Origin: a virus
Direction: 5' to 3' (one strand)
IMG/VR virus record: IMGVR_UViG_3300045978_000522
Span: 1-53,816 of that record
DNA: 53,816 nt
Shown: piece by piece, positions 18,871 through 52,988 of the stretch
How positions within the stretch are numbered: position 1 is the first letter of the stretch
Layout: the number at the start of each line of letters is the position of its first letter
Notes under the pieces: model-generated
What the model was told of the DNA's origin: nothing
The model's database searches: none
Seen by the model: the letters and a program-made list of their open reading frames with translations, nothing else
Program-made: the position numbers and the translations under genes

Positions 18871-19200
18871 ATGCGACGGCCTCCCATAGGGTGGATGTCC
18901 CTGCCCGTCTGCGCACGTTACCTGTCAAAGACCGAGTACGCCGTGCGCGGTTTGGTTCGCCGCCACCAGATTCCGTTCTACAAGACACACGGCCGGCTGT
19001 TGTTCGATGCCGGCGAGATCGACGCATGGGTGCGGCAGCAGGACTGGCTGCCGCTCACGACCAACGACGAACAGGAGGGTCACGATGAAGGGAAAAAAGC
19101 TGCGCCTGACCAGGCGCGGGAGCTGGTTCTACGCCACCGGGCGTATCTCCGGTCAGCCGCGGAGTTTCACGACGGGCGTCCGCGACGACGGAACGCCTGA
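18871..19200 (+). CDS. Putative excisionase, MerR/HTH_17-like
   Basis: The first 65 residues of this 109-aa protein (MSLPVCARYLSKTEYAVRGL, then RRHQIPFYKTHGRLLFDAGEID) follow the helix-turn-helix pattern of excisionase (HTH_17) proteins. In these a DNA-binding wing Y/K-x-x-GR-x-L-F leads to a final D-x-x-EID-x-W. GAAAGGGG seven bases upstream supports the start. The frame continues 116 bases into the integrase gene in another phase. The overlapping tail may be non-essential. With the integrase it would direct prophage excision. Confidence 0.65.
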   Translation: MRRPPIGWMSLPVCARYLSKTEYAVRGLVRRHQIPFYKTHGRLLFDAGEIDAWVRQQDWLPLTTNDEQEGHDEGKKAAPDQARELVLRHRAYLRSAAEFHDGRPRRRNA

Positions 19201-20221
19201 AGCCACGCAGGCGGCGCAACAACGGGTCGACGAGATCAGTGCCGAGCACGGGCTCGTGCGTGCCGCCGCGCTGCCCACCTTCGCCGCGTTCTGGGCGCTC
19301 TACCAGACGCTGCCCGCGGCGCGGTACCACAAGGGCAAGCCGAAATCGCCCAAGACGCTGCTGCGCGAGCAGTCGCTCATTCGCCCGGCGCTCGTCTTCT
19401 GGGGCAACAAGCCGCTCAACACGCTGAACGGCGAGGCGTACGAAGCACATCGCCAAGAGCGGGGCATGACCGCGCGCCACCGTCAGCGCGTGCCAACGCC
19501 GGTCACCCGGTCCACCGTCGCGCGCGAAGTGTCGCTCCTCATCAAGGTACTCGGCGTGGCGTGCGAACAGTACGGCCTCAAGCGCGTCAAGTTCGCGCTG
19601 CGCGCCTACCTGTCTCCGGTGCGGGAGCGTGTGGTCACGGTGGCCGAACAGACCGAACTCCTGCGACGGCTGCCGCGGCGCTATCACGGGCTCGTGCTGT
19701 TCCTGCTCCTCACGGGCGCACGCATCAGCGAGGCGCTGGGGCTGCGGCCGGAGCATATCGACTGGGACCGGCGGATGGTCCGCCTCACCGGCAAGGGCAA
19801 CAAGACACGCAAGGTCGGCATGAACGACGAACTCGCCGCAGTGCTGCGCGGGCAGCTGGCCATCTCGCCCACGCTCTGGCGAAGCTGGCCGGAGGCACGT
19901 CTGATCGGTGCGCTCCGCCGTGCCTGCAGGGCGCGCCCGGCGTGCGACGGCGATCCGGGCCGGCCGGCGATGCCCGCGGTGACGCCGCACGCGTTCCGCC
20001 ACACCTTTGGCTGGCGGTACCTCACCGGCTCGGGCGACCACAGCAAGCGCGGCGACATCTACTCGCTCAGTAGGCTTCTTGGACACAGCGGTGTACAAAT
20101 CACGCAGCGTCACTACGCGCATCTGTTCGACGAGGACCTGCGCGATCTGATGCTCGGGGTCAATCTCGGGGTGTCCGCCGAAACCGTGCAACAGGCGATC
20201 GGCGATCCGGCGAGCAGGTAA
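19085..20221 (+). CDS. int: Tyrosine-family integrase
   Basis: This 378-aa protein has the full catalytic set of tyrosine recombinases: R213 in TGARISEAL, K237 in TGKGNKTRK, H302-x-x-R305 in HAFRHTFG, H334 in LLGHSGV and the nucleophile Y344 in TQRHYAHL. The N-terminal 60 residues (WFYATGRISGQPRSFTTG) form an arm-type DNA-binding domain, and residues 65-180 are a core-binding region. AGGAGGG five bases upstream supports the start. The excisionase lies upstream and repeated sites (candidate attP) lie directly downstream. It integrates and, with excisionase, releases the phage genome. Confidence 0.92.
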   Translation: MKGKKLRLTRRGSWFYATGRISGQPRSFTTGVRDDGTPEATQAAQQRVDEISAEHGLVRAAALPTFAAFWALYQTLPAARYHKGKPKSPKTLLREQSLIRPALVFWGNKPLNTLNGEAYEAHRQERGMTARHRQRVPTPVTRSTVAREVSLLIKVLGVACEQYGLKRVKFALRAYLSPVRERVVTVAEQTELLRRLPRRYHGLVLFLLLTGARISEALGLRPEHIDWDRRMVRLTGKGNKTRKVGMNDELAAVLRGQLAISPTLWRSWPEARLIGALRRACRARPACDGDPGRPAMPAVTPHAFRHTFGWRYLTGSGDHSKRGDIYSLSRLLGHSGVQITQRHYAHLFDEDLRDLMLGVNLGVSAETVQQAIGDPASR

Positions 20222-21661: not shown

Positions 21662-22261
21662 ATGCATCTGACCCCTGCTGACCTGACGCTCGGCGATCTG
21701 CAGGCGCGCGCGGCGTACGCGGCCTCGCACCTGCGCAGCGAGGGCGTGCACCTCTCCACGGTGCTCAAGGACCTGCTGGCCGACAAGGACCCGAAGCGCT
21801 TCGATCGCAGTAAGCCAATAGACATGATCCGGGTTGAGGCGGGCTTTGCCTTCGAGGCGGCGCTGGAGCAGGCGCTCGCGGCGCGGCACCCGGGCCTGAT
21901 GCGCCCGGGCGAGGTCGTCTGCGAAGGGCTCATCGGCAGCCCGGACGGGCTCGACCTGGAGGCCGACCCGCCGTATCTCGCCGAGTACAAGTGCACCTGG
22001 ATGTCCTCGGCCCACGGCATCGAGGACGCCCGCTTCTGGCACTGGTGGGTCCAGGTGCGCTGCTACCTGTACATGCTGCACGAGGCGTGCGGGCTCGACG
22101 TCCTGGACGCCCTGCTCATTGCGCTGTTCGTCAACGGCGACTACCGCGGCTCCGGGCCGCAGCTGCTCGCCTGGCGCGCCACCTTCGATCGCCGGGAACT
22201 CATTGAGGCGTTCGCGATGGTCGTCAACCACGGACGCCGGAAAGGATTGCTTGCCGCATGA
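21662..22261 (+). CDS. PD-(D/E)XK family nuclease
   Basis: This 199-aa protein has the core motifs of Cas4/RecB-type PD-(D/E)XK nucleases: a helix with Glu (EAGFAFEAALEQALA), GSPDGLDLE with the catalytic Asp, then YLAEYKCTW with E-x-K. A final helix carries WWVQVRCYLYML, like the Q-x-x-x-Y motif. It is ATGA-coupled to the RecA-like ATPase. The pair resembles phage recombination modules in which an exonuclease works with a Sak4-type ATPase. No iron-sulphur cysteines are evident. Confidence 0.8.
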   Translation: MHLTPADLTLGDLQARAAYAASHLRSEGVHLSTVLKDLLADKDPKRFDRSKPIDMIRVEAGFAFEAALEQALAARHPGLMRPGEVVCEGLIGSPDGLDLEADPPYLAEYKCTWMSSAHGIEDARFWHWWVQVRCYLYMLHEACGLDVLDALLIALFVNGDYRGSGPQLLAWRATFDRRELIEAFAMVVNHGRRKGLLAA

Positions 22262-23079
22262 CCACGATCGCTGCTCCCACTCCGCTGACGCTCGACGAGC
22301 TACTCAAGCTGCCCACCCGCGAAGTGGTGCTGCTGGCCGGCCGGGACGGCAGCGGCAAGACGTCCGCTGTCGTCTCCGTGGCCGCCTGGGTCGCACTGAT
22401 CACGCCGAGCGCGCGCATGTTCGTGATCGACACCGAGAACAAGTTTGCGCCGGTCGTCCAGAGCTTCGGCCCCGACGCTCCGCGCAACCTGCACTACTAC
22501 CGCGCCGAGACGATGAACGCGGCGACCGAAGCGCTCGATACGATCCTGACGCAGGCGCGCCCGGGCGACTGGCTCGCGGTGGAGTCGATGGGCCGGCTCT
22601 GGGACCGCGCCCAGGACATGGCCTACATGACCATCTCCGGACTCGACAAGGCAGCCTACCTGGAACGGCGCCGCGACGCAGTCGGCAAGAAGCCGCCCGT
22701 CACGCCGCGGCCCGACGACTTCTGGAGCGTGTGCAAGGGCGCCCACGATGGTGCCTTTGTCGAGCGCCTGGCCCAGCACGCCACGCTCAACGTGCTGCTG
22801 ACGACGACCATCGCCAAGCCGCCACGCGAGAACACCACCTACAAGGAGTCCGAGGTGCGGCGCGACGTGCGCGTCGAGTTTGGCATCGACGCCGGCCTGG
22901 AAGGGGCACCGCGCCTGCCCTACTACGTCCAGACGCTGTGTCTGCTGGAGCGCCGCGGCGGCGTGGTGTGCCGCGTGGTGCGCGACAACCTGTCGACGCT
23001 GGAGAACCCGGTCACCGAATTTGCTGTCGAGTCACGCAAGCTCTGGGCGCAGGCGTTCTGGAGCGCCTGCCGGGTGTAG
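22258..23079 (+). CDS. RecA-like ATPase (Sak4-type)
   Basis: This 273-aa single-domain P-loop ATPase has Walker A GRDGSGKTS at residues 28-36 and a Walker-B-like strand at about 103-112 (GDWLAVESMG). FVIDTENKF at 56-63 is typical of phage RecA/RAD51-like Sak4 recombinases. It has no N- or C-terminal RecA extensions. ATGA coupling to the PD-(D/E)XK nuclease suggests a two-part recombination or replication-repair unit. It could also act as a helicase loader. Confidence 0.75.
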   Translation: MTTIAAPTPLTLDELLKLPTREVVLLAGRDGSGKTSAVVSVAAWVALITPSARMFVIDTENKFAPVVQSFGPDAPRNLHYYRAETMNAATEALDTILTQARPGDWLAVESMGRLWDRAQDMAYMTISGLDKAAYLERRRDAVGKKPPVTPRPDDFWSVCKGAHDGAFVERLAQHATLNVLLTTTIAKPPRENTTYKESEVRRDVRVEFGIDAGLEGAPRLPYYVQTLCLLERRGGVVCRVVRDNLSTLENPVTEFAVESRKLWAQAFWSACRV

Positions 23080-23081
23080 CC

Positions 23082-23357
23082 ATGCCGCTCCTCGAATATC
23101 ACGCCGAGCCGCGCACCAATCTCCGCATCGGGTACCCGTACGCGCCCGATCTGTTTCGCATGAAAGGCGAGACGTTCGCGATTCTACGCGTCGATCCGGA
23201 TCAGAACTTTCCGCGCCCGTACTGGCTGACACGGGAGCAAGTGGTAGCGCTGCGCGACATGCTGGCGCAGGCGCTCACCGAATGGCCCATTCCGGACGAG
23301 CCGGTGGTCGAAGCGTCGCTGCTGTCGCCCGGCGATGGCCATGCTCTGGCTCGATGA
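23082..23357 (+). CDS. Hypothetical protein in recombination operon
   Basis: This 91-aa protein contains LFRMKGETFAILRVDPDQNF and WLTREQVVALRDMLAQAL. It starts two bases after the ATPase stop and overlaps the ERCC4-type nuclease gene by 23 bases. Function unknown. Confidence 0.6.
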   Translation: MPLLEYHAEPRTNLRIGYPYAPDLFRMKGETFAILRVDPDQNFPRPYWLTREQVVALRDMLAQALTEWPIPDEPVVEASLLSPGDGHALAR

Positions 23358-24060
23358 CCGTATCGGCGCCAAGGACCTGCAGGCACCACTTCAACGCCTG
23401 GGCGTCGAGGTGGAGTCAGTGCGACTCGACTTCGCCGACTGCGCCTGGCTCGGGCACGGGCCGGAGGGGCCCGAGAGCGTCCAGGTCGGCTGCGAGCTGA
23501 AGACGGTCTCGGACCTGCTCGACATCGACCGCTTCGCCGGACACCAGATCCCGGGGCTCCTGCGGCAGTACGACCGGGTCTGGGTGATTGTCGAAGGGCT
23601 GTGGCGCCCGGGTGAGGACGGCGTGCTGGAGGTCTGGAGCCACGGCTGGGCCCCGCTCCGGCACGGGCGGCGCGGGTATACCTACCGCGAGGTCGATCAT
23701 CTGCTGGCGACTCTGGAGCTGCGCGCCGGGCTCTCCCTGCGGCGCAGCTCGACGCGGAGCGAGACGGCGCACATCCTGGCCGGCCTCTACACCTGGTGGC
23801 GCGACAAGCGGTGGAAGGAGCACCGCGCCCACTTGCGTCTGGCGCGGGCGGCCGACGTGGCGCTGCTGACGCCGCCCCCGCTCAGGCGCCGGGTGGCGCA
23901 TGAACTGCCCGGAGTTGGCTATGAGCGTAGCGCCGCAGTGGCCGCGCATTTCCCTTCGACCCTCGCGTTGGCCACGGCGGACCGAGCTGCCTGGGAACAG
24001 ATTGACGGCATCGGACCGCGCCTCGCTCAACGCATCACAGAGACGCTGGCCCGGGAATGA
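23335..24060 (+). CDS. ERCC4-type nuclease with helix-hairpin-helix domain
   Basis: The N-terminal half of this 241-aa protein matches the ERCC4 (XPF/MUS81-type) nuclease: GCELKTVSDLLDIDRFAGHQ has E-x-K in the place of the usual ERK motif, followed by VWVIVEG. The C-terminal 60 residues form tandem helix-hairpin-helix motifs (LPGVGYERS and IDGIGPRLAQRI). Such proteins cut branched or flap DNA. Here it probably processes recombination or replication forks together with the upstream ATPase and nuclease. Confidence 0.8.
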   Translation: MAMLWLDDRIGAKDLQAPLQRLGVEVESVRLDFADCAWLGHGPEGPESVQVGCELKTVSDLLDIDRFAGHQIPGLLRQYDRVWVIVEGLWRPGEDGVLEVWSHGWAPLRHGRRGYTYREVDHLLATLELRAGLSLRRSSTRSETAHILAGLYTWWRDKRWKEHRAHLRLARAADVALLTPPPLRRRVAHELPGVGYERSAAVAAHFPSTLALATADRAAWEQIDGIGPRLAQRITETLARE

Positions 24061-24572: not shown

Positions 24573-25862
24573 ATGGCTACCGCGGTGCACGGCTCAGGGT
24601 CGCAGCAGGCGCGCGTGTTCTTCCTCGGGGAAGCGCCCGGCGAGGTCGAGGAGAAAACCGGCATTCCCTTCACCGGCAAGGCCGGGGCGGAGTTCGACTA
24701 CTGGCTGCAGCGCACGTGTCATCTGGCGCGCAAGGACGTCTTTGTCACCAACCTGTATCGGTACCGGCCGCCAGCCAACCGCGACCCGACGCCGCTGGAA
24801 ATCGCCGGCTGCGAGCCCGACTTGTGGCGGGAGCTGCTGACGGTCGGGCCGCGCATCCTGGCGACGCTCGGGCGCCTATCGACCCGGTGGGCGCTCGGCG
24901 ACTGGGCCTCGATGGAGGCGACGCACGGGCTGCCGCACCTGGCTGCCCTGACTTCGCCCTGGGGCGAGTGGAGCGGCACGGTGGTGCCGATCACGCATCC
25001 GGCGGCCGGGCTGCATCAGCCAACCTATTACGCCTGGACGGTGGCCGACTTCGAGGCGCTCGCCGAGGTGCTCGCCGGCACCCGGGCGGTGCACCGGCTG
25101 GACACCGAGCCAACCGACTATGGCTGGCACACGCCGGCTGACCTGGGGCGCATCCGGCGGACGAGCCTGCTGGGCCTGGATACCGAGGGGAGCCCGCGCC
25201 AGCCCTGGGGCCTCAGCTACAGCGTGGCGCCCCGGCACGGACGGGTCATCCGGGCCGGCGACCGGGAAGCGCTCACCGCCTTCGACCGGGCGCTCGTCGA
25301 GCAACAGCCCCAGCTCGTGCTGCACTACGCCCCGCACGACTTCCGGGTGCTCTCCGGAATGGGCCTCAACGTGGACGCCTGGCCCGGCCAGGTCTACGAC
25401 ACGATGCAGCTGGCCTACCTGGCAGCCCAGCCGCAGGGGCTCAAGACGCTCGCCTACCGCCTCTGTGGGCTCCGCCTGCGGGAGTACGAGGATCTGGTCG
25501 GGGAGGCTGCCGATCGCCTCGCCAGGGGCTTCCTGGAGGCCGCAGCGACCCTTTTGGCGCCTAGGGAGGGGGAGAAGCCGACGCCCATCCTGCGGGCGGT
25601 GCGGCGGAGCCTGAAGAGCGCCAGTCCCCGGGCGCTCTGGGGCCGGCAGCGGGAGGACATCCGGGAGGTGGTCGCCGGGGTCTGCGGCGCCATGCCCGAG
25701 GCCAGCCTCGACGAGGTGCCGGTCGAGGAGGCGCTTGCCTACGCCTGCGCCGATGCCGACGCGACGCGGCGGGTGTTCCTGGTGCTGCGGGATCAGTTCG
25801 ACTACGACCAGGCGATTGCGCGGGACGGCTATGCGCCCACCGGGATCCCCCATGGCGCGTGA
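24573..25862 (+). CDS. Uracil-DNA glycosylase fused to DEDDy 3'-5' exonuclease
   Basis: Residues 1-170 of this 429-aa protein form a family 4/5-type uracil-DNA glycosylase: GEAPGEVEEKTGIPFTGKAG (19-38), VTNLYRYRPP (58-67) and THP at 141-143. Only two Cys (49, 80) are present in this part, so the usual four-Cys iron-sulphur site appears incomplete. Residues 195-410 form a DnaQ/PolA-type exonuclease: ExoI LLGLDTEGS (D203, E205), ExoII HYAPHDF (D256) with YDTMQLAYL, and ExoIII Y390-x-x-x-D394. It appears to supply proofreading to the polymerase at 27170, which lacks this domain. That pairing is inference. Confidence 0.8.
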   Translation: MATAVHGSGSQQARVFFLGEAPGEVEEKTGIPFTGKAGAEFDYWLQRTCHLARKDVFVTNLYRYRPPANRDPTPLEIAGCEPDLWRELLTVGPRILATLGRLSTRWALGDWASMEATHGLPHLAALTSPWGEWSGTVVPITHPAAGLHQPTYYAWTVADFEALAEVLAGTRAVHRLDTEPTDYGWHTPADLGRIRRTSLLGLDTEGSPRQPWGLSYSVAPRHGRVIRAGDREALTAFDRALVEQQPQLVLHYAPHDFRVLSGMGLNVDAWPGQVYDTMQLAYLAAQPQGLKTLAYRLCGLRLREYEDLVGEAADRLARGFLEAAATLLAPREGEKPTPILRAVRRSLKSASPRALWGRQREDIREVVAGVCGAMPEASLDEVPVEEALAYACADADATRRVFLVLRDQFDYDQAIARDGYAPTGIPHGA

Positions 25863-25899
25863 CCCGGATGGCCGAGGCGCGCATCGCCAAGGAGAAGCC

Positions 25900-26521
25900 A
25901 TGACGCGCGGGGCGGCGCAGCCTGGCCGCAGCGGGAGCCGCGTCACACAGGCGCTCCGGCCTCTCACCGGCGGCGATACCGATCCAGCTGTGCGCGTCAC
26001 CCCCAGCTCCTATCGCGAGGTCTGCCGCTACGTCACCTTGCACCACCGCCATCACAAACCGCCGCGTGGCGGCAAGGTGTTCATTGCCCTGCGCAGCGGA
26101 GACGGCGAGTTGCTCGGCGTTGCAGTCCTCGGGCGACCCAGTGCCCGCGCCTTCGACCCGGCGAGAGTCGCCGAGATCACGCGCACCTGTACCGACGGGG
26201 CGCACAACGCCAACAGCCGCCTTTACGGCGCGTGCCGGCAAATCGCCCGGGCCATGGGCTACGAGCGCGTCGTCACCTATTACGGAGGAGAGCGAGAGCG
26301 GGGCGAGCCTCCGCGCGGCGGGTTTCGTCAGGGTGGCGGTCCTCGAGCCGCGGAAGAACTGGGCCGACAGCAGCCGAGCACTCAGACACCTGCGCGATCC
26401 CGAGGGACGCGGTGGCGTACGCCGCTACCGGTGGGAAGTGGTCTTTGTGGGCAACGGCGGGCCAAGCTATGACCACCGTGCTACGTCCGGCGCTCGTGCA
26501 ACAGGCGCTCCGGCTCTATGA
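25900..26521 (+). CDS. XF1762-like phage protein, apparent frameshift
   Basis: The first part (25900-26283) reads TLHHRHHKPPRGGK...GVAVLGRPSARAF...EITRTCTDGAHNANSRLYG...MGYERVVTYY. The continuation SGASLRAAGF...NWADSSRAL...RYRWEVV lies one frame over (26285-26521). Together they make one typical XF1762-family protein of about 206 aa. The break is at TAC-G-GAG-GAG (26281-26290), where a +1 shift restores the family sequence next to an SD-like GGAGGAG. Without the shift the frame ends at 26472. A programmed +1 frameshift, a real mutation or a sequencing error are all possible. AAGGAG precedes the ATG. Confidence 0.7.
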
Positions 26522-26675
26522 GGCGCTGCTCGACAAGACATGTGCGGACCCGGTCCGGGCGCACATCGCCCAACTGGCAGCGGTTATCGACGCCATGAGC
26601 CCGCGCGAGCAGGCCACCTACTACGCCGGGGCGCAGCGGGTACGCCTCGCCCGGCGCGGGCAGCAGGAGGCGTGA
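26469..26675 (+). CDS. Small helical protein
   Basis: This 68-aa protein contains LYEALLDKTCADPVRAHIAQ. It is coupled by ATGA to the unshifted frame of the previous gene and by TGATG to the next. Function unknown. Confidence 0.6.
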   Translation: MTTVLRPALVQQALRLYEALLDKTCADPVRAHIAQLAAVIDAMSPREQATYYAGAQRVRLARRGQQEA

Positions 26676-27034
26676 TGCGGGCCGACCTGTTCGTGTACCT
26701 GAGCGGGCCGCTGACGGCGACGCTCGGCTACACCGTCGAGGACAACATCGCCTCGGCCCTGCGCACCTACTGGGCCCTGCTGCTGCGCGGCGTGCCGGCC
26801 TTCTGCCCACATCTGGCGGGCGCCTTCCCGACTGCCTGGACGTTGATGCCACGAGAGCAATGGCTCGCCTACGACTACCGCGTGATCGAACGCGCGACGC
26901 ATGTGCTGATGCTCCCGCGGTGGGAGACGAGCGCCGGTGCCGTGGACGAGAAGACCTACGCTGAGGCGCGCGGGCTCCCGGTCGTCTACAGCATCGGCGA
27001 GTTGCTCGGCGACGAGGCGCCGGAGCCGGCATGA
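26675..27034 (+). CDS. DUF4406-like protein (deoxyribosyltransferase fold)
   Basis: This 119-aa protein has VYLSGPLTA at residues 7-15, FCPHLAGAF at about 43, then WLAYDYRVIERATHVLMLPR and WETSAGAVDE...ARGLPVVY. These are the hallmarks of DUF4406 proteins with a nucleoside 2-deoxyribosyltransferase-like fold. They are frequent in phages and may act on nucleotides or DNA bases. The chemistry here is unproven. GCAGGAGG precedes the start. Confidence 0.7.
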   Translation: MRADLFVYLSGPLTATLGYTVEDNIASALRTYWALLLRGVPAFCPHLAGAFPTAWTLMPREQWLAYDYRVIERATHVLMLPRWETSAGAVDEKTYAEARGLPVVYSIGELLGDEAPEPA

Positions 27035-27077
27035 CGCTCCTGGCGCGGGCGCAGCGTGCCAAGAAAGGCTCACCGCC

Positions 27078-27173
27078 ATGCCAGAACTGAGTCTGCCCCA
27101 GGCCATCGTCATCGTAGGGGTCATTTTCGCTGCGCTGATCTACGTCATCGCGCGGGCGTGGTTTGAACGGTGA
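27078..27173 (+). CDS. 31-aa single-pass membrane protein
   Basis: This tiny protein consists of one hydrophobic helix (AIVIVGVIFAALIYVIARAW). AAAGG lies about nine bases upstream of the ATG, and its TGA overlaps the GTG of the polymerase gene (GTGA). Function unknown. Confidence 0.5.
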   Translation: MPELSLPQAIVIVGVIFAALIYVIARAWFER

Positions 27174-28477
27174 CGCTGCTCCCCTGGGCGCTGGTCGAGA
27201 CCGAGCGCCAGCTGCTGCCCCAGATCCGGCGCATGGAGGATGTCGGGCTGCCGGTGGATCTCGACTACTTCAAAGCCTTCAGCGATTACTTGGCGTACCA
27301 ACTGGAAACGGAGCGCACGGCGATTCACGCACGTGGCGGCCCGGTGAATCCGAACTCGGCAGACCAGGTCGCCGCCTGGCTCTATGACGATCTCGGCGTG
27401 TCGCCGCCGCGCAAGCGCACCAAGCGCGGACGCGGCTCGACGGCGGAGAAGTACCTGCAGGCGGCACGGCACCGGCCGGCGACGACACGGCCGCAGCGCC
27501 AGGCGGTCGATCAGGTGCTGTCGTACAAAGAGCTGGTAACGCTCAAGACGCGCTACGTGGATCCGATGCCGGCGTGGGTCGGGGCCGATGGGCGCCTGCA
27601 CGCGCGCATCCTGTACACGCGCACCGATACCGGGCGGTTGGCGGCCAAGGATCCGAACGTGCTGGCCTTTCCCAAGCACTCGGACCTGGGGTTGCTCGTG
27701 CGGCGCGGCTTCGTGGCGCCGCCAGGGCGCGTGCTGGCCGAGTGGGATCTGCACCAGATCGAGATCGTGATGCTGGCCATCGACAGCGGCGACGAGCGCA
27801 TGCTGGCGGAGATCCGGGCCGGCGTCGACAAGCACCGGGCAACGGCGGCCCATATCCTCTACCGGATTCCGCTCAACCAGGTGACCCCGGAGCAGCGCTT
27901 CACCGCCAAGGCCGTCAATTTCGGGATCGTCATGGGCCTCACCGCCAAGGGGCTGCGCGAACAGTTTGACAAGCAGGGGAGCGTGCACGTCGATGCCCGC
28001 GGCCAGCGGCGCGCCTGGACCGAGGCCGACTGCCAGGCGCTGCTCGATGCCTGGGCGCGCGGCTACCCGCAGGCGGCGGCCTATCTGGAGCGCAAGCATG
28101 CCGAGGCGCGCCGGCTTGGCTACGTCACCGACTGGCGCGGCCGGCGACGGGCCCTGCCGGCGGTCCACTCGCCTCACCGCCAGGTCGCCGCCGAGGCGCT
28201 ACGCCAGGCGCAGGCTACGCCGATCCAGGCGGGGGCACAAGAACTGACCAAGCTGTGGATGCTGGCCACCTGGCCACGCCTGGAGTGGCTGCGGGCGCAG
28301 GGTATCTATGTCGAACTCCTGCTCCAGGTGCATGACGCCTTGCTCTGCGAACTGGACGCCGCCGCCTACGACGACGTGGATGCGCATATCCAGGCGGCGC
28401 TCGGCGAACTTCCCCGGCTTCTCGCCCCGGTGACGTGTACAGGCAGCGGGCCCGCCCGGACGTGGGCGGACTGTTGA
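27170..28477 (+). CDS. Family A DNA polymerase, polymerase domain only
   Basis: This 435-aa protein carries only the polymerase domain. Motif A is LAEWDLHQIE (D193, E198), D-x-H at 220-222, motif B K247 in FTAKAVNFGIVMG, and motif C QVHDALLCE (D389). Compared with E. coli Pol I, the position of Tyr766 is Met (M255) and that of Glu883 is Ala (A390); the catalytic Asp residues and Phe762 equivalent (F251) are present. The exonuclease domain is encoded separately at 24573. The GTG start overlaps the preceding stop. It is the presumed replicative polymerase of the phage. Confidence 0.88.
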   Translation: MTLLPWALVETERQLLPQIRRMEDVGLPVDLDYFKAFSDYLAYQLETERTAIHARGGPVNPNSADQVAAWLYDDLGVSPPRKRTKRGRGSTAEKYLQAARHRPATTRPQRQAVDQVLSYKELVTLKTRYVDPMPAWVGADGRLHARILYTRTDTGRLAAKDPNVLAFPKHSDLGLLVRRGFVAPPGRVLAEWDLHQIEIVMLAIDSGDERMLAEIRAGVDKHRATAAHILYRIPLNQVTPEQRFTAKAVNFGIVMGLTAKGLREQFDKQGSVHVDARGQRRAWTEADCQALLDAWARGYPQAAAYLERKHAEARRLGYVTDWRGRRRALPAVHSPHRQVAAEALRQAQATPIQAGAQELTKLWMLATWPRLEWLRAQGIYVELLLQVHDALLCELDAAAYDDVDAHIQAALGELPRLLAPVTCTGSGPARTWADC

Positions 28478-42077: not shown

Positions 42078-43607
42078 TCACCGCGAAGAAGGCCGCCGCA
42101 CGCCGTCACGCCCCAGCAGCCGCGACCTGCGCCGGGGCTGCATCCACTTGCGGCGGCGCATCGGCGCCACCGGCTGGGTGACGGGCACGTGGCTCATGAG
42201 GAAGTAGGCGAGCGCGACCACCGCGTGATCGATCCGGCTGCGCGCCAGTGCGCGCGGGCGGACGGCGTCGTACTGCATGCGCGGGATCGTGCGAATCAGG
42301 TAGGGGCAGCCCGTGAGCGGGGGACCGTAGTTGCCGGGCCGCAGGATCTGGAGACGCGGTTGCCCGGTCGAGGTCGTCTCGTGCAGCGCCGACTGCACGG
42401 CGTGGGCGAAATGTTCGCGGTTGTTGACCGAGCACTCCAGCGGCAGGCCTTCGCGCTCCATGGTTTCCCGGATGGTCTGGATCTGGCCGTGCTGAATGTC
42501 GATCGAGGGGTCGCAGTAGGTGGTGACGATGGGCAGATCGCCCGTCTCCTGCAGGATCTCGCGCGCGATGTGCTTGGCGATGGTGCGGTGCCAGAGCTGC
42601 TCGCGGAAGACGAGGATCTGGTGGCCGATGACCGCGATCCACAGGCACACCGCCGGGTCGGGGTCGAAGCCGTGGTCGTAGGCGCGGTAGAGGCGGACCC
42701 AGGGCTCGTGGAGAATGGTTCTGAGGCCCGGGGTCAGCGCCTGGGGGACTTCGGTGACAACGTGGTGCGGCTGGCCGTTGCGCGTCGGCTCGAAATCGAG
42801 CAGGCCGCGCTCCTGGGTGCGCTCGCCCTCGAGCCACGCCAGGCGCACGTGCGCCGGTAGCCCCGCAAACCGCTTGCGGTATTGTTGGAGGTCCAAGTGC
42901 GGGTTGTCGGCCTGGGTGACGTGGATATGCCGCCAGTCCGCCGGGTCGTAGTCCGGGTCGTCCTTGGGCTCGACGTCCTTGTCGACGAAGTACTTCCAGA
43001 TCTCGTCGACCGAGCCGCCGAGCGGGTTGGTCGTCAGGCGCAGCATCGCAATCAGCTTGAGCGTGGCCGGCACGCGCACCGAGGCGGCCAGGCGCGTGAT
43101 CACTTCCCAGGGGAAGGTGGTCGCCTCGTCGATGCCCATCCAGTAGAACTGGGCGGAGAGGAGGTTTTCGACGTCCAGCTCCGACTGGCAGTGGTAGTAG
43201 TAACCGCGGGAGCCGTTGGGATAGAGCGCCAGGTGCTCGCCGACCCGGTACTCGCCACCAAGCGCGCGCATCTCGGCGTCAATGAACACCAGATGGCTCT
43301 TGAGCAGTTCCGGCATCGTGCGCCGGAGGATCACGTAGAGGAAATTCGGCGTGAGCATCGCGCGCAGATGCGCGTCGAATCTCAGGGCGATAGACTTTCC
43401 TGACCCTCGGCTGCCTTCGAGCAGCACGTTGGGCTCAATGGCGCCGTGGAACTCCCGGGCCTTCGGCGTCGGCTTGTAGAGGATCGAGACCTCGCCGTTG
43501 GCGTTCCGGATGAGCACGGCGCCTTCGCGATCCTCGGGCCGGTGGAGCGGAAGCGCCGTGGGCGGCGGAGCCGAATCGAGGACCAGCTCGGCGCGCGAGA
43601 GGCTCAC
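42078..43607 (-). CDS. terL: Terminase large subunit
   Basis: This 509-aa protein has the ATPase motor and nuclease of TerL proteins: Walker A EGSRGSGKS (G65-S72), Walker B YWMGIDEATTF with D160-E161, and nuclease acidic residues D311 (RAYDHGFDPD), D366 (TTYCDPSIDI) and D460 (SRIDHAVVALAYF). It cuts concatemeric DNA and pumps it through the portal. Its start overlaps the small-subunit gene stop (ATGA). Confidence 0.9.
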   Translation of the reverse strand: MSLSRAELVLDSAPPPTALPLHRPEDREGAVLIRNANGEVSILYKPTPKAREFHGAIEPNVLLEGSRGSGKSIALRFDAHLRAMLTPNFLYVILRRTMPELLKSHLVFIDAEMRALGGEYRVGEHLALYPNGSRGYYYHCQSELDVENLLSAQFYWMGIDEATTFPWEVITRLAASVRVPATLKLIAMLRLTTNPLGGSVDEIWKYFVDKDVEPKDDPDYDPADWRHIHVTQADNPHLDLQQYRKRFAGLPAHVRLAWLEGERTQERGLLDFEPTRNGQPHHVVTEVPQALTPGLRTILHEPWVRLYRAYDHGFDPDPAVCLWIAVIGHQILVFREQLWHRTIAKHIAREILQETGDLPIVTTYCDPSIDIQHGQIQTIRETMEREGLPLECSVNNREHFAHAVQSALHETTSTGQPRLQILRPGNYGPPLTGCPYLIRTIPRMQYDAVRPRALARSRIDHAVVALAYFLMSHVPVTQPVAPMRRRKWMQPRRRSRLLGRDGVRRPSSR

Positions 43608-51478: not shown

Positions 51479-51880
51479 GTGCGTCTCACGAACTACAAGT
51501 CGAACCGCCACGTCGTCTACTCCAGCAAGTATCACGTCGTCTGGTGCCCGAAGTACCGACGCCCGGTGCTGGTCGGGCCCATCGCCAAGCGATTAGCGCG
51601 CCTGCTGCGGACGCTCTGTGCCGACATGCAGGTCGACGTGCTGGCGCTGGAAGTGATGCCGGATCATGTGCATCTCCTGGCCGAAGTCGACCCCCAGTTC
51701 GGCATTCATCGGCTCGTGAAGCGGTTGAAGGGGCACACCTCGCACGCGCTGCGACAGGAGTTCCCGACGCTGAAGTCCCGGCTGCCGACGCTGTGGACAC
51801 ATTCCTACTTCGTGAGTACCGTCGGCGGGGCGCCGCTCTCGGTGATAAAGCAGTACGTCGAGACCCAGCGTGATGTCTAA
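51479..51880 (+). CDS. tnpA: IS200/IS605 Y1 transposase TnpA
   Basis: This 133-aa HUH transposase has H63-x-H65 in VMPDHVHLL and the nucleophilic Tyr126 in VIKQYVETQ, with KYHVVWCPKYRRPVL near the N-terminus. It acts as a dimer on single-stranded DNA, often at replication forks, to excise and insert the element. GTG start at 51479. A TATACT -10-like sequence lies at 51465. Overlap with tnpB is eight bases. All catalytic residues are present. Confidence 0.95.
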   Translation: MRLTNYKSNRHVVYSSKYHVVWCPKYRRPVLVGPIAKRLARLLRTLCADMQVDVLALEVMPDHVHLLAEVDPQFGIHRLVKRLKGHTSHALRQEFPTLKSRLPTLWTHSYFVSTVGGAPLSVIKQYVETQRDV

Positions 51881-52988
51881 GCGGACGTTCCGCTACCGGT
51901 TGTATCCCACCACCGCGCAAGGCGACACGCTGGACGCTCACTTGCGGATCTGCTGCGAGTTGTACAATGCCGCGCTCCAGGAACGCCGAGACGCATGGCG
52001 CCTGTGTCGCCGCTCGTGCGGGTTCGCGCAGCAATCGGCGCAGTTGCCCGCCATCAAGCGCGACCGGCCGGACGTGGCGGCCGTGTACTCGCAGGTCTTG
52101 CAGGACGTGTTGCACCGCGTCGACAAAACGTTCCTGGCGTTCTTTGCCCGCGTCCGTCGTGGAGAGCGCGCGGGCTATCCGCGCTTCCGCGCGTCGCAGC
52201 GGTTCGACTCCCTCACCTACCCCCAATCGGGCTTCAGCGTCAGCGGTCGACACCTCGAGCTCTCGAAGATCGGCGCCGTGAAGATCAAGCTCCACCGGCC
52301 GATCCTCGGGACGATCAAGACCCTGACGATCAAACGAGAAGCCGGCCGGTGGTACGCGTGCTTCAGCGTCGATGTGGCGCCTGAGCCGCTGCCCGCGTCG
52401 ACCGCGGCGATCGGGATTGACGTCGGGTTGACCCACTTCGCCACGCTGAGTGACGGCACCGCGATAGCGAATCCGCGCCACGCCCGACGGGCCGAAGCAA
52501 AGATGCGCCGTGCGCAGCGTCGGATCGCTCGTCGCCGCCGAAGAAGCGCCGGCCATCGTGAGGCCGTGCAACTCCTGCAAGCGGCGCACGCGCACGTTCG
52601 TCACCAACGGGCCGACGTGCAGCACAAACTCTCTCGGCAGTTGGTCGACCGCTATGGCCTGATTGCGGTTGAGGATTTGAACGTTCGAGGATTGGCGAGC
52701 GGGAGGCTCGCCAAAGCCGTGCAGGATGCTGGTTGGGCGTCGTTCATCCACAAGCTCGCGTACAAGGCTGAGAGCGCCGGGCGCGTGCTGGTGAAAGTCG
52801 ACCCGCGCGGCACCTCGCAGACATGCCCGTGTGGGGCCCACACCCCGAAGCCTCTGAGCCAACGCTGGCATCAGTGCCTCGACTGTGGGTTGTCGGCCGC
52901 TCGGGATCATGTGTCTGCTCGTCTCATACTCTCGCGGGGACTCCGCGATCAGGACTCAACGTGGGCAACGGTGCCGTGCGTGTCCTGA
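51873..52988 (+). CDS. tnpB: RNA-guided nuclease TnpB
   Basis: This 371-aa protein has an intact RuvC triad: D183 in IGIDVGLTHFATLSDG, E267 in IAVEDLNVRG and D345 in SAARDHVSARL. The zinc finger is C318-x-C320 and C335-x-x-C338. The first pair is CxC rather than the usual CxxC. TnpB uses an RNA from the element's right end (omegaRNA) to cut DNA next to a TAM matching the insertion site, here TTAC, which helps the element persist. The gene ends five bases before the right-end hairpin region. It looks functional. Confidence 0.93.
   Translation: MSKRTFRYRLYPTTAQGDTLDAHLRICCELYNAALQERRDAWRLCRRSCGFAQQSAQLPAIKRDRPDVAAVYSQVLQDVLHRVDKTFLAFFARVRRGERAGYPRFRASQRFDSLTYPQSGFSVSGRHLELSKIGAVKIKLHRPILGTIKTLTIKREAGRWYACFSVDVAPEPLPASTAAIGIDVGLTHFATLSDGTAIANPRHARRAEAKMRRAQRRIARRRRRSAGHREAVQLLQAAHAHVRHQRADVQHKLSRQLVDRYGLIAVEDLNVRGLASGRLAKAVQDAGWASFIHKLAYKAESAGRVLVKVDPRGTSQTCPCGAHTPKPLSQRWHQCLDCGLSAARDHVSARLILSRGLRDQDSTWATVPCVS

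Follow-up and report, generated by a model that had tools for sequence, protein, structure and literature searches.

Many phage polymerases carry a uracil-DNA glycosylase (UDG) domain, the role of which is not described in the open-licence literature that we searched. SPO1 gp31-type polymerases, which correspond to the family profile PHROG_17 and include that of Thermus phage phiLo, are usually single polypeptides in which a UDG domain, a DEDDy 3'-5' exonuclease (exo) domain and a PolA polymerase (pol) domain follow one another. According to the available part of its structure record (PDB 9qhs), the phiLo enzyme is a family A polymerase with modified template. It matches our UDG-exo profile (4.7e-43), so this fused kind of enzyme is already known and has a solved structure. 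In poxviruses, coupling of uracil surveillance to the replicative polymerase has been demonstrated. The available part of PMC11142717 describes the vaccinia UDG, D4, as part of the polymerase holoenzyme and of its processivity factor; the poxvirus holoenzyme is reported to excise template uracil, and the step after excision is stated there to be unknown. Here we analyzed a whole 53,816-base IMG/VR virus record (IMGVR_UViG_3300045978_000522, hereafter the window), in which the three domains of the SPO1 gp31 type occur in the same order but are distributed over two genes, one for a UDG-exo protein and one for a stand-alone polymerase (Pol). The likeness to the poxvirus E9-A20-D4 holoenzyme, where a viral UDG is built into the replicative polymerase, is one of analogy only: that polymerase belongs to the unrelated family B, and its UDG, which is tied in via A20 and termed UNG in PMC11142717, is not a family 4 enzyme. 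The genes and domains at the center of this analysis are as follows.

24573..25862, + strand: whole UDG-exonuclease gene, 429 amino acids (aa) (Pfam and PHROG profiles, AlphaFold2 model)
24573..25076, + strand: UDG domain, residues 1-168, family-4-like, without the iron-sulfur (Fe-S) cysteine set; pocket E20, F33, N60, H142 (Pfam UDG, VIA-align, residues)
25104..25832, + strand: DEDDy 3'-5' exonuclease domain, residues 178-420; an insert separates motif II from motif III (Pfam DNA_pol_A_exo1, VIA-align to Klenow 1kfs, residues)
27170..28477, + strand: family A polymerase domain, 435 aa; its GTG start codon overlaps the preceding open reading frame (ORF) at that frame's stop (GTGA); catalytic D193 and D389 (Pfam, PHROG, residues)

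The first protein matches Pfam UDG at residues 7-150 (1.7e-25; 90.2 bits against a cut-off of 24.3) and DNA_pol_A_exo1 at residues 201-309 (2.8e-08). Its AlphaFold2 model, for which 42 sequences from the window and IMG/VR were aligned, is confident (predicted local distance difference test, pLDDT, 93.0; predicted template modeling score, pTM, 0.86). The UDG part of the model (residues 1-170) is nearest to the family 4 UDGs of Sulfolobus (4zbx, Z 25.4) and Thermus (1ui0, Z 25.1), with root-mean-square deviations (rmsd) of 1.5-1.9 Å over 161-166 residues (1.5 Å over 161 for 1ui0), so that both profile and fold place it in the UDG superfamily. The exo part (residues 177-429) superposes on the Klenow exonuclease 1kfs (Z 18.7, rmsd 2.5 Å, 174 residues), and alignment places the catalytic residues at D203, E205, D256, Y390 and D394. 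DnaQ exonucleases are of the DEDDh kind. Because motif III of the window exo reads YxxxD, the domain is of the PolA DEDDy kind, and a DnaQ-type exonuclease was ruled out. A preliminary description of this locus had placed a DnaQ/PolA-like DEDDy exonuclease 1.3 kb upstream of the polymerase, fused behind a UDG; position, fusion and DEDDy PolA kind hold, and the DnaQ part does not.

As that description also stated, the polymerase itself has no exonuclease domain: Pfam detects DNA_pol_A at residues 33-414 (4.6e-71) and no exonuclease. The catalytic residues are present (D193, D389, R243, K247 and F251), and the protein aligns to Taq polymerase from Taq residue 426 onward, which we take to be the start of the Taq polymerase domain. 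The two window proteins, whose genes are 1307 bp apart, match PHROG_17 side by side, at profile positions 476-831 and 834-1233. These adjacent matches to a single profile indicate that a polymerase of one family has been divided where exo meets pol, here into two ORFs instead of the single polypeptide usual for the SPO1 gp31 type. The split of UDG-exo from Pol noticed earlier is thus confirmed. Two residues of the window Pol differ from Taq: motif C is HDA (Ala390) where Taq has HDE, and the O-helix has Met255 where Taq has Tyr. Of the loci described below, L109 shares both differences and L029 the first.

We assembled 59 distinct UDG-exo loci (numbered with the prefix L), of which 42, window included, came from two IMG/VR scans and 17 from annotated phages fetched by choice. 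A locus was a complete ORF with UDG and exo hidden Markov model (HMM) hits, counted once per distinct first 250 residues; the seed sequences of the HMMs included the window and L010. L029 was admitted by hand, its exo having been recognised by alignment and not by HMM. ORFs cut by a contig end (e.g., L049, L065, L077-L079, L172 and L174), UDG-only loci and repeats of one contig were excluded, as were L045 (a fused UDG-pol with no exo hit) and L030 (a UDG alone before a broken exo-pol). Since the annotated phages were chosen and the IMG/VR patterns mostly required GEAPGE, the fused-to-split and pocket frequencies are not unbiased. The gene is fused at 40 loci, split at 15 and broken inside the polymerase domain at three, and one locus has UDG-exo only. 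SPO1 is tallied as broken because of its intron; in Vibrio phage ABTNL-3 (L022) and Bacillus phage BSP7 (L027) the break within the polymerase domain holds another gene or a gap. With 15 of 59 loci split, a single chain is no fixed feature of this group. The preliminary description had a glycosylase joined to the proofreading part. The fusion is real, but not to that part alone: the UDG is usually the N-terminal domain of a one-chain phage polymerase (40/59 loci; SPO1 gp31; phiLo), and its tie to the replicative polymerase was therefore already known.

Searching viral contigs with single window proteins for close relatives gave one match only, the 100% identical contig discussed below; the L010 protein and a strict motif pattern matched no viral contig. 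Cellular genome contigs held no match to the window protein, and for the best 80 of 311 relatives, retrieved there with query A4, the UDG ORF never included exo or pol.

A quick maximum-likelihood tree was built from the polymerase domains of 55 rows, all those among the 59 that have at least 300 pol residues; 16 of its 52 inner branches are left open. Here the window pairs with its closest relative, L109 (support 100), inside a nine-row clade (Shimodaira-Hasegawa-like approximate likelihood ratio test, SH-aLRT, 97). Eight members are split (window, L109, L029, L032, L034, L115, L116 and L121) and one, L102, is fused. The tree requires a minimum of six changes between fused and split, at least three of them forced by well-supported branches, although this is a rough count. 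Two further split loci, Caulobacter phage Kuura and phage ctLwi270 (MW202554.1), resemble the window in that Pol is encoded separately, after UDG-exo. They lie far from it in the tree, and their genes are annotated merely as polymerase or hypothetical proteins.

The comparison with L109 bears on whether the split is simply an assembly error or decay of a fused gene, caused by a stop codon, an insertion or a frameshift. A 1.3 kb insertion parts the halves in the window and not in L109, as decay or misassembly might produce. In L109 no gene stands between the halves and the pol ORF starts at the UDG-exo stop, with a readable TTGA stop/start overlap (start codon inferred) as expected of coupled genes. 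The two loci are equally similar across all three domains, with identities of 96/163 (59%) for UDG, 118/208 (57%) for exo and 244/424 (58%) for pol. NG86 nonsynonymous divergence (dN) is 0.40, 0.39 and 0.39, well below the synonymous divergence (dS) of 1.06, 0.96 and 1.66, which is near saturation. Catalytic residues are kept in both halves, and eight of nine clade rows are split. Over both compared stretches (17,287 and 17,305 bases) the window shows 100% identity to a second IMG/VR contig, IMGVR_UViG_3300045977_000592. This argues against an obvious assembly error, although the two records may have reads or a sample in common. We therefore regard decay or misassembly as very improbable.

A separate UDG-exo could also act alone in trans, as a repair or DNA-degrading nuclease, leaving Pol to copy without proofreading. 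The chains are separate, their genes stand 1.3 kb apart with unrelated genes between, and a stand-alone PolA-type exonuclease structure exists (7r0t, ExnV1). Yet the halves together match the profile of the fused polymerase, a fused member (L102) belongs to the same clade, the UDG-exo and pol genes overlap in L106 and L109, and in all 15 split loci pol lies at most 1.4 kb downstream of UDG-exo (partly owing to the test itself, which required pol within 4 kb). We consider independent action improbable. In favor of a two-chain enzyme, the model of a fused IMG/VR relative, L044 (824 aa; pLDDT 89.2, pTM 0.84), shows exo and pol in the Klenow arrangement, with 568 residues aligning to 1kfs. A Foldseek search with this model returned Klenow-type and other family A chains, with 9qhs not among the 50 matches listed.

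We then asked what the sequence says about the glycosylase. The Glu, Phe, Asn and His that we take to form the family 4 uracil pocket are all present in the window (E20, F33, N60 and H142) and kept in nine of nine rows of its clade, over deep divergence. Relatives in the clade thus show no loss of these residues, and the glycosylase reading is not refuted on that count. In L112, a fused locus near the clade, Leu replaces the Phe. The intact pocket suggests uracil recognition.

Family 4 UDGs normally carry a [4Fe-4S] cluster held by four cysteines. As described earlier, the window UDG lacks most of them: C80 alone of the four remains, there is no CxxC before motif A, and a Tyr stands at the third position. 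L109 and L029 likewise lack the third and fourth cysteines and the CxxC. L102 keeps all four. In L032, L034, L115, L116 and L121 the third and fourth persist, alongside extra N-terminal cysteines in a spacing other than CxxC. Because some members retain the cysteines and others do not, the cluster was probably lost within the clade while the pocket persisted. The window UDG thus shares fold and pocket residues with the Thermus and Sulfolobus enzymes, but differs from them in its missing cysteine set and its fusion to an exonuclease. The phiLo enzyme keeps the pocket, as the window does, and also the four cysteines; SPO1, unlike the window, has lost pocket residues.

Such losses raise the alternative of a UDG domain that has no excision activity and serves DNA binding or processivity, holding template or primer for exo and pol and no longer needing the cluster. 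Pocket residues are altered in 11 of 18 annotated-phage rows (the pocket table adds phiLo to the 17 fetched phages) that nonetheless retain the domain. The cysteines are gone from the window, L109 and L029, and poxvirus D4 sits in a processivity factor, according to the available part of PMC11142717. Within the window clade, by contrast, all four pocket residues persist over deep divergence in every row, and the UDG domains of the window and L109 are as alike as their exo and pol domains. We judge a non-excising module unlikely here, though a serious contender.

Pocket loss was also tallied against nucleotide metabolism. Eight phages have a thymidylate-synthase-like gene close to that for the polymerase (six checked with Pfam, two by annotation alone), and seven of them have lost pocket residues; so have three of nine without such an annotated gene in the fetched stretch. 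The comparison covers L003, L005, L006, L012, L018, L020, L024, L025 and the rest of the annotated phages that were fetched, several of them close relatives; L019, which has no annotation, was left out. Where phages modify their thymidine, the UDG domain may perhaps have taken on another function. The window and five clade records, some of which are fragments, yielded no member of the thymidylate synthase or dUTPase families, which makes entry of uracil into the phage DNA plausible.

One neighboring gene bears on what might follow excision.

23335..24060, + strand: ERCC4-HhH nuclease (XPF/Hef-like), encoded upstream of UDG-exo in every clade member (Pfam ERCC4 and HHH; NCBIfam Hef, 1.3e-07; synteny)

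The window protein scores 30.9 bits with PF02732 (cut-off 24) and 28.7 with HHH_2 (cut-off 27); its NCBIfam matches, Hef and archaeal Xpf, are far below curated cut-offs. The ERCC4 nuclease motif is ERKxxxD. The corresponding motif is ELKTVSD in the window and ERKTVTD in L116 and L121. An ERCC4 gene stands upstream of UDG-exo at 10 of 59 loci, namely all nine clade rows and L112 (weak, 3.5e-07). It abuts UDG-exo or nearly so (0-59 bp) in L032, L034, L102 and L116, and overlaps the called UDG-exo ORF start in L112, L115 and L121. At the other 49 loci, with 2 kb or more of upstream sequence available for 42 of them, none was found; these include Kuura and ctLwi270, the latter searched within 1.7 kb upstream. 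Because the clade is one lineage, the gene order represents conservation over deep divergence and not many independent events. Its presence near UDG-exo in all clade members suggests that copying and uracil repair are linked.

We favor, as the more probable account, a reading in which the two genes encode one two-chain replicase whose UDG reads template uracil, possibly with the nuclease acting next. A one-chain UDG-exo-PolA polymerase would have been divided between its exo and pol domains in an ancestor, and inserted genes would later have moved the halves further apart. The UDG-exo and Pol chains would come together again as a Klenow-like enzyme that carries the UDG on its N-terminal side. 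Even without a cluster, the pocket would recognize uracil in the DNA being copied and would probably excise it, synthesis would stall there, and the neighboring XPF/Hef-like nuclease could then act on the stalled or abasic site. By analogy with the poxvirus precedent, as far as the available part of that work goes, a UDG within a polymerase may excise template uracil. The earlier interpretation, which proposed a coupling of uracil detection to DNA synthesis, is partly supported as a whole.

Several observations weigh against this account. With the cluster missing from the window, L109 and L029, uracil excision may be weak or lost, and the window UDG scores 108.7 bits with TIGR00758 (NCBIfam family 4), below the curated cut-off of 125.3. 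SPO1, Almagne, Shrew and other related phage polymerases keep a UDG domain despite lost pocket residues, which shows that in those enzymes it serves some role other than excision. L029 has Glu in place of the exo-II Asp. The ERCC4 gene stands apart from UDG-exo in three clade members, the window (512 bp), L109 (1614 bp) and L029 (about 2.1 kb), and since the synteny is confined to one clade and L112 it may reflect shared descent.

A further possibility, which we put forward only tentatively, is a compact replication-coupled uracil repair unit in which the XPF/Hef-like nuclease, the cluster-free glycosylase-exo subunit and the separate Pol would find, cut out and refill uracil at the phage fork. 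If so, a divided polymerase would let UDG-exo leave the fork for repair and then return. Because the natural split parts glycosylase-exo from polymerase, coupling can be tested by adding or omitting one subunit. The pocket-intact subclade without the cysteine set asks whether a family 4 glycosylase needs its cluster, and the conserved ERCC4 nuclease is a candidate for the step following excision. In the open-licence literature we found neither the recurrent split at the exo/pol junction, nor the cluster-free, pocket-intact subclade, nor the ERCC4 synteny, and no paper on a split UDG-exo/Pol or on UDG-exo with ERCC4. A term search of the main text of PMC11348598, on phage polymerases, found no mention of uracil or glycosylase, and the available parts of PMC7824862 and PMC2147016 contain nothing on a split UDG-exo/Pol.

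The space between the halves in the window holds the following genes and one further small ORF.

25900..26472, + strand: XF1762/Mom-like protein (phrog_1384, 1.8e-22, scanned within the longer ORF 25735-26469; NF045478, 1.2e-35)
26675..27034, + strand: DUF4406/nucleoside deoxyribosyltransferase-like protein (PF14359 and phrog_355, both scanned within the longer ORF 26540-27031)
27078..27173, + strand: 31-aa hydrophobic peptide, predicted membrane, directly before pol (hydropathy 2.56 over 19 residues)

The stop of the 31-aa peptide is the one that overlaps the pol start. A small hydrophobic, probably membrane protein precedes pol in six of the eight split clade members (window, L032, L034, L115, L116 and L121; maximum 19-residue hydropathy 2.2-2.6) and is absent from L109 and L029. 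No homing endonuclease that could have caused the split was recognised by eye among the inter-half genes, those of the window being the ones also run against Pfam and PHROGs. In the fused L102 (5935-9426), an intein-like insert with an HNH_3 domain (Pfam) lies in polymerase motif A, between ADY and SQIE; the intein was called from sequence.

Two more genes precede the ERCC4 gene.

21662..22261, + strand: PD-(D/E)XK-type nuclease, name inferred from neighbors of fused polymerases (position; tblastn 47% to L109)
22258..23079, + strand: AAA ATPase, Sak4-like at most (weak) (Pfam/PHROG profiles; 61% to L109)

The first label rests on annotated nuclease genes near fused polymerases. Elsewhere in the window, a tyrosine integrase (19007-20221; Pfam, PHROG profiles) indicates that the phage may be temperate, and an IS200/IS605-like pair, Y1 transposase and OrfB/TnpB, lies at 51479-52988. 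HMO-2011-type phages were rejected as a source, as their polymerase is exo-DnaJ-pol according to the available part of PMC9038755 and the replication genes therefore differ. The terminase large subunit (42078-43607, - strand) has 27% identity to that of HMO-2011-type marine podoviruses, a distant match, and the structural and replication modules have probably been subject to gene swapping.

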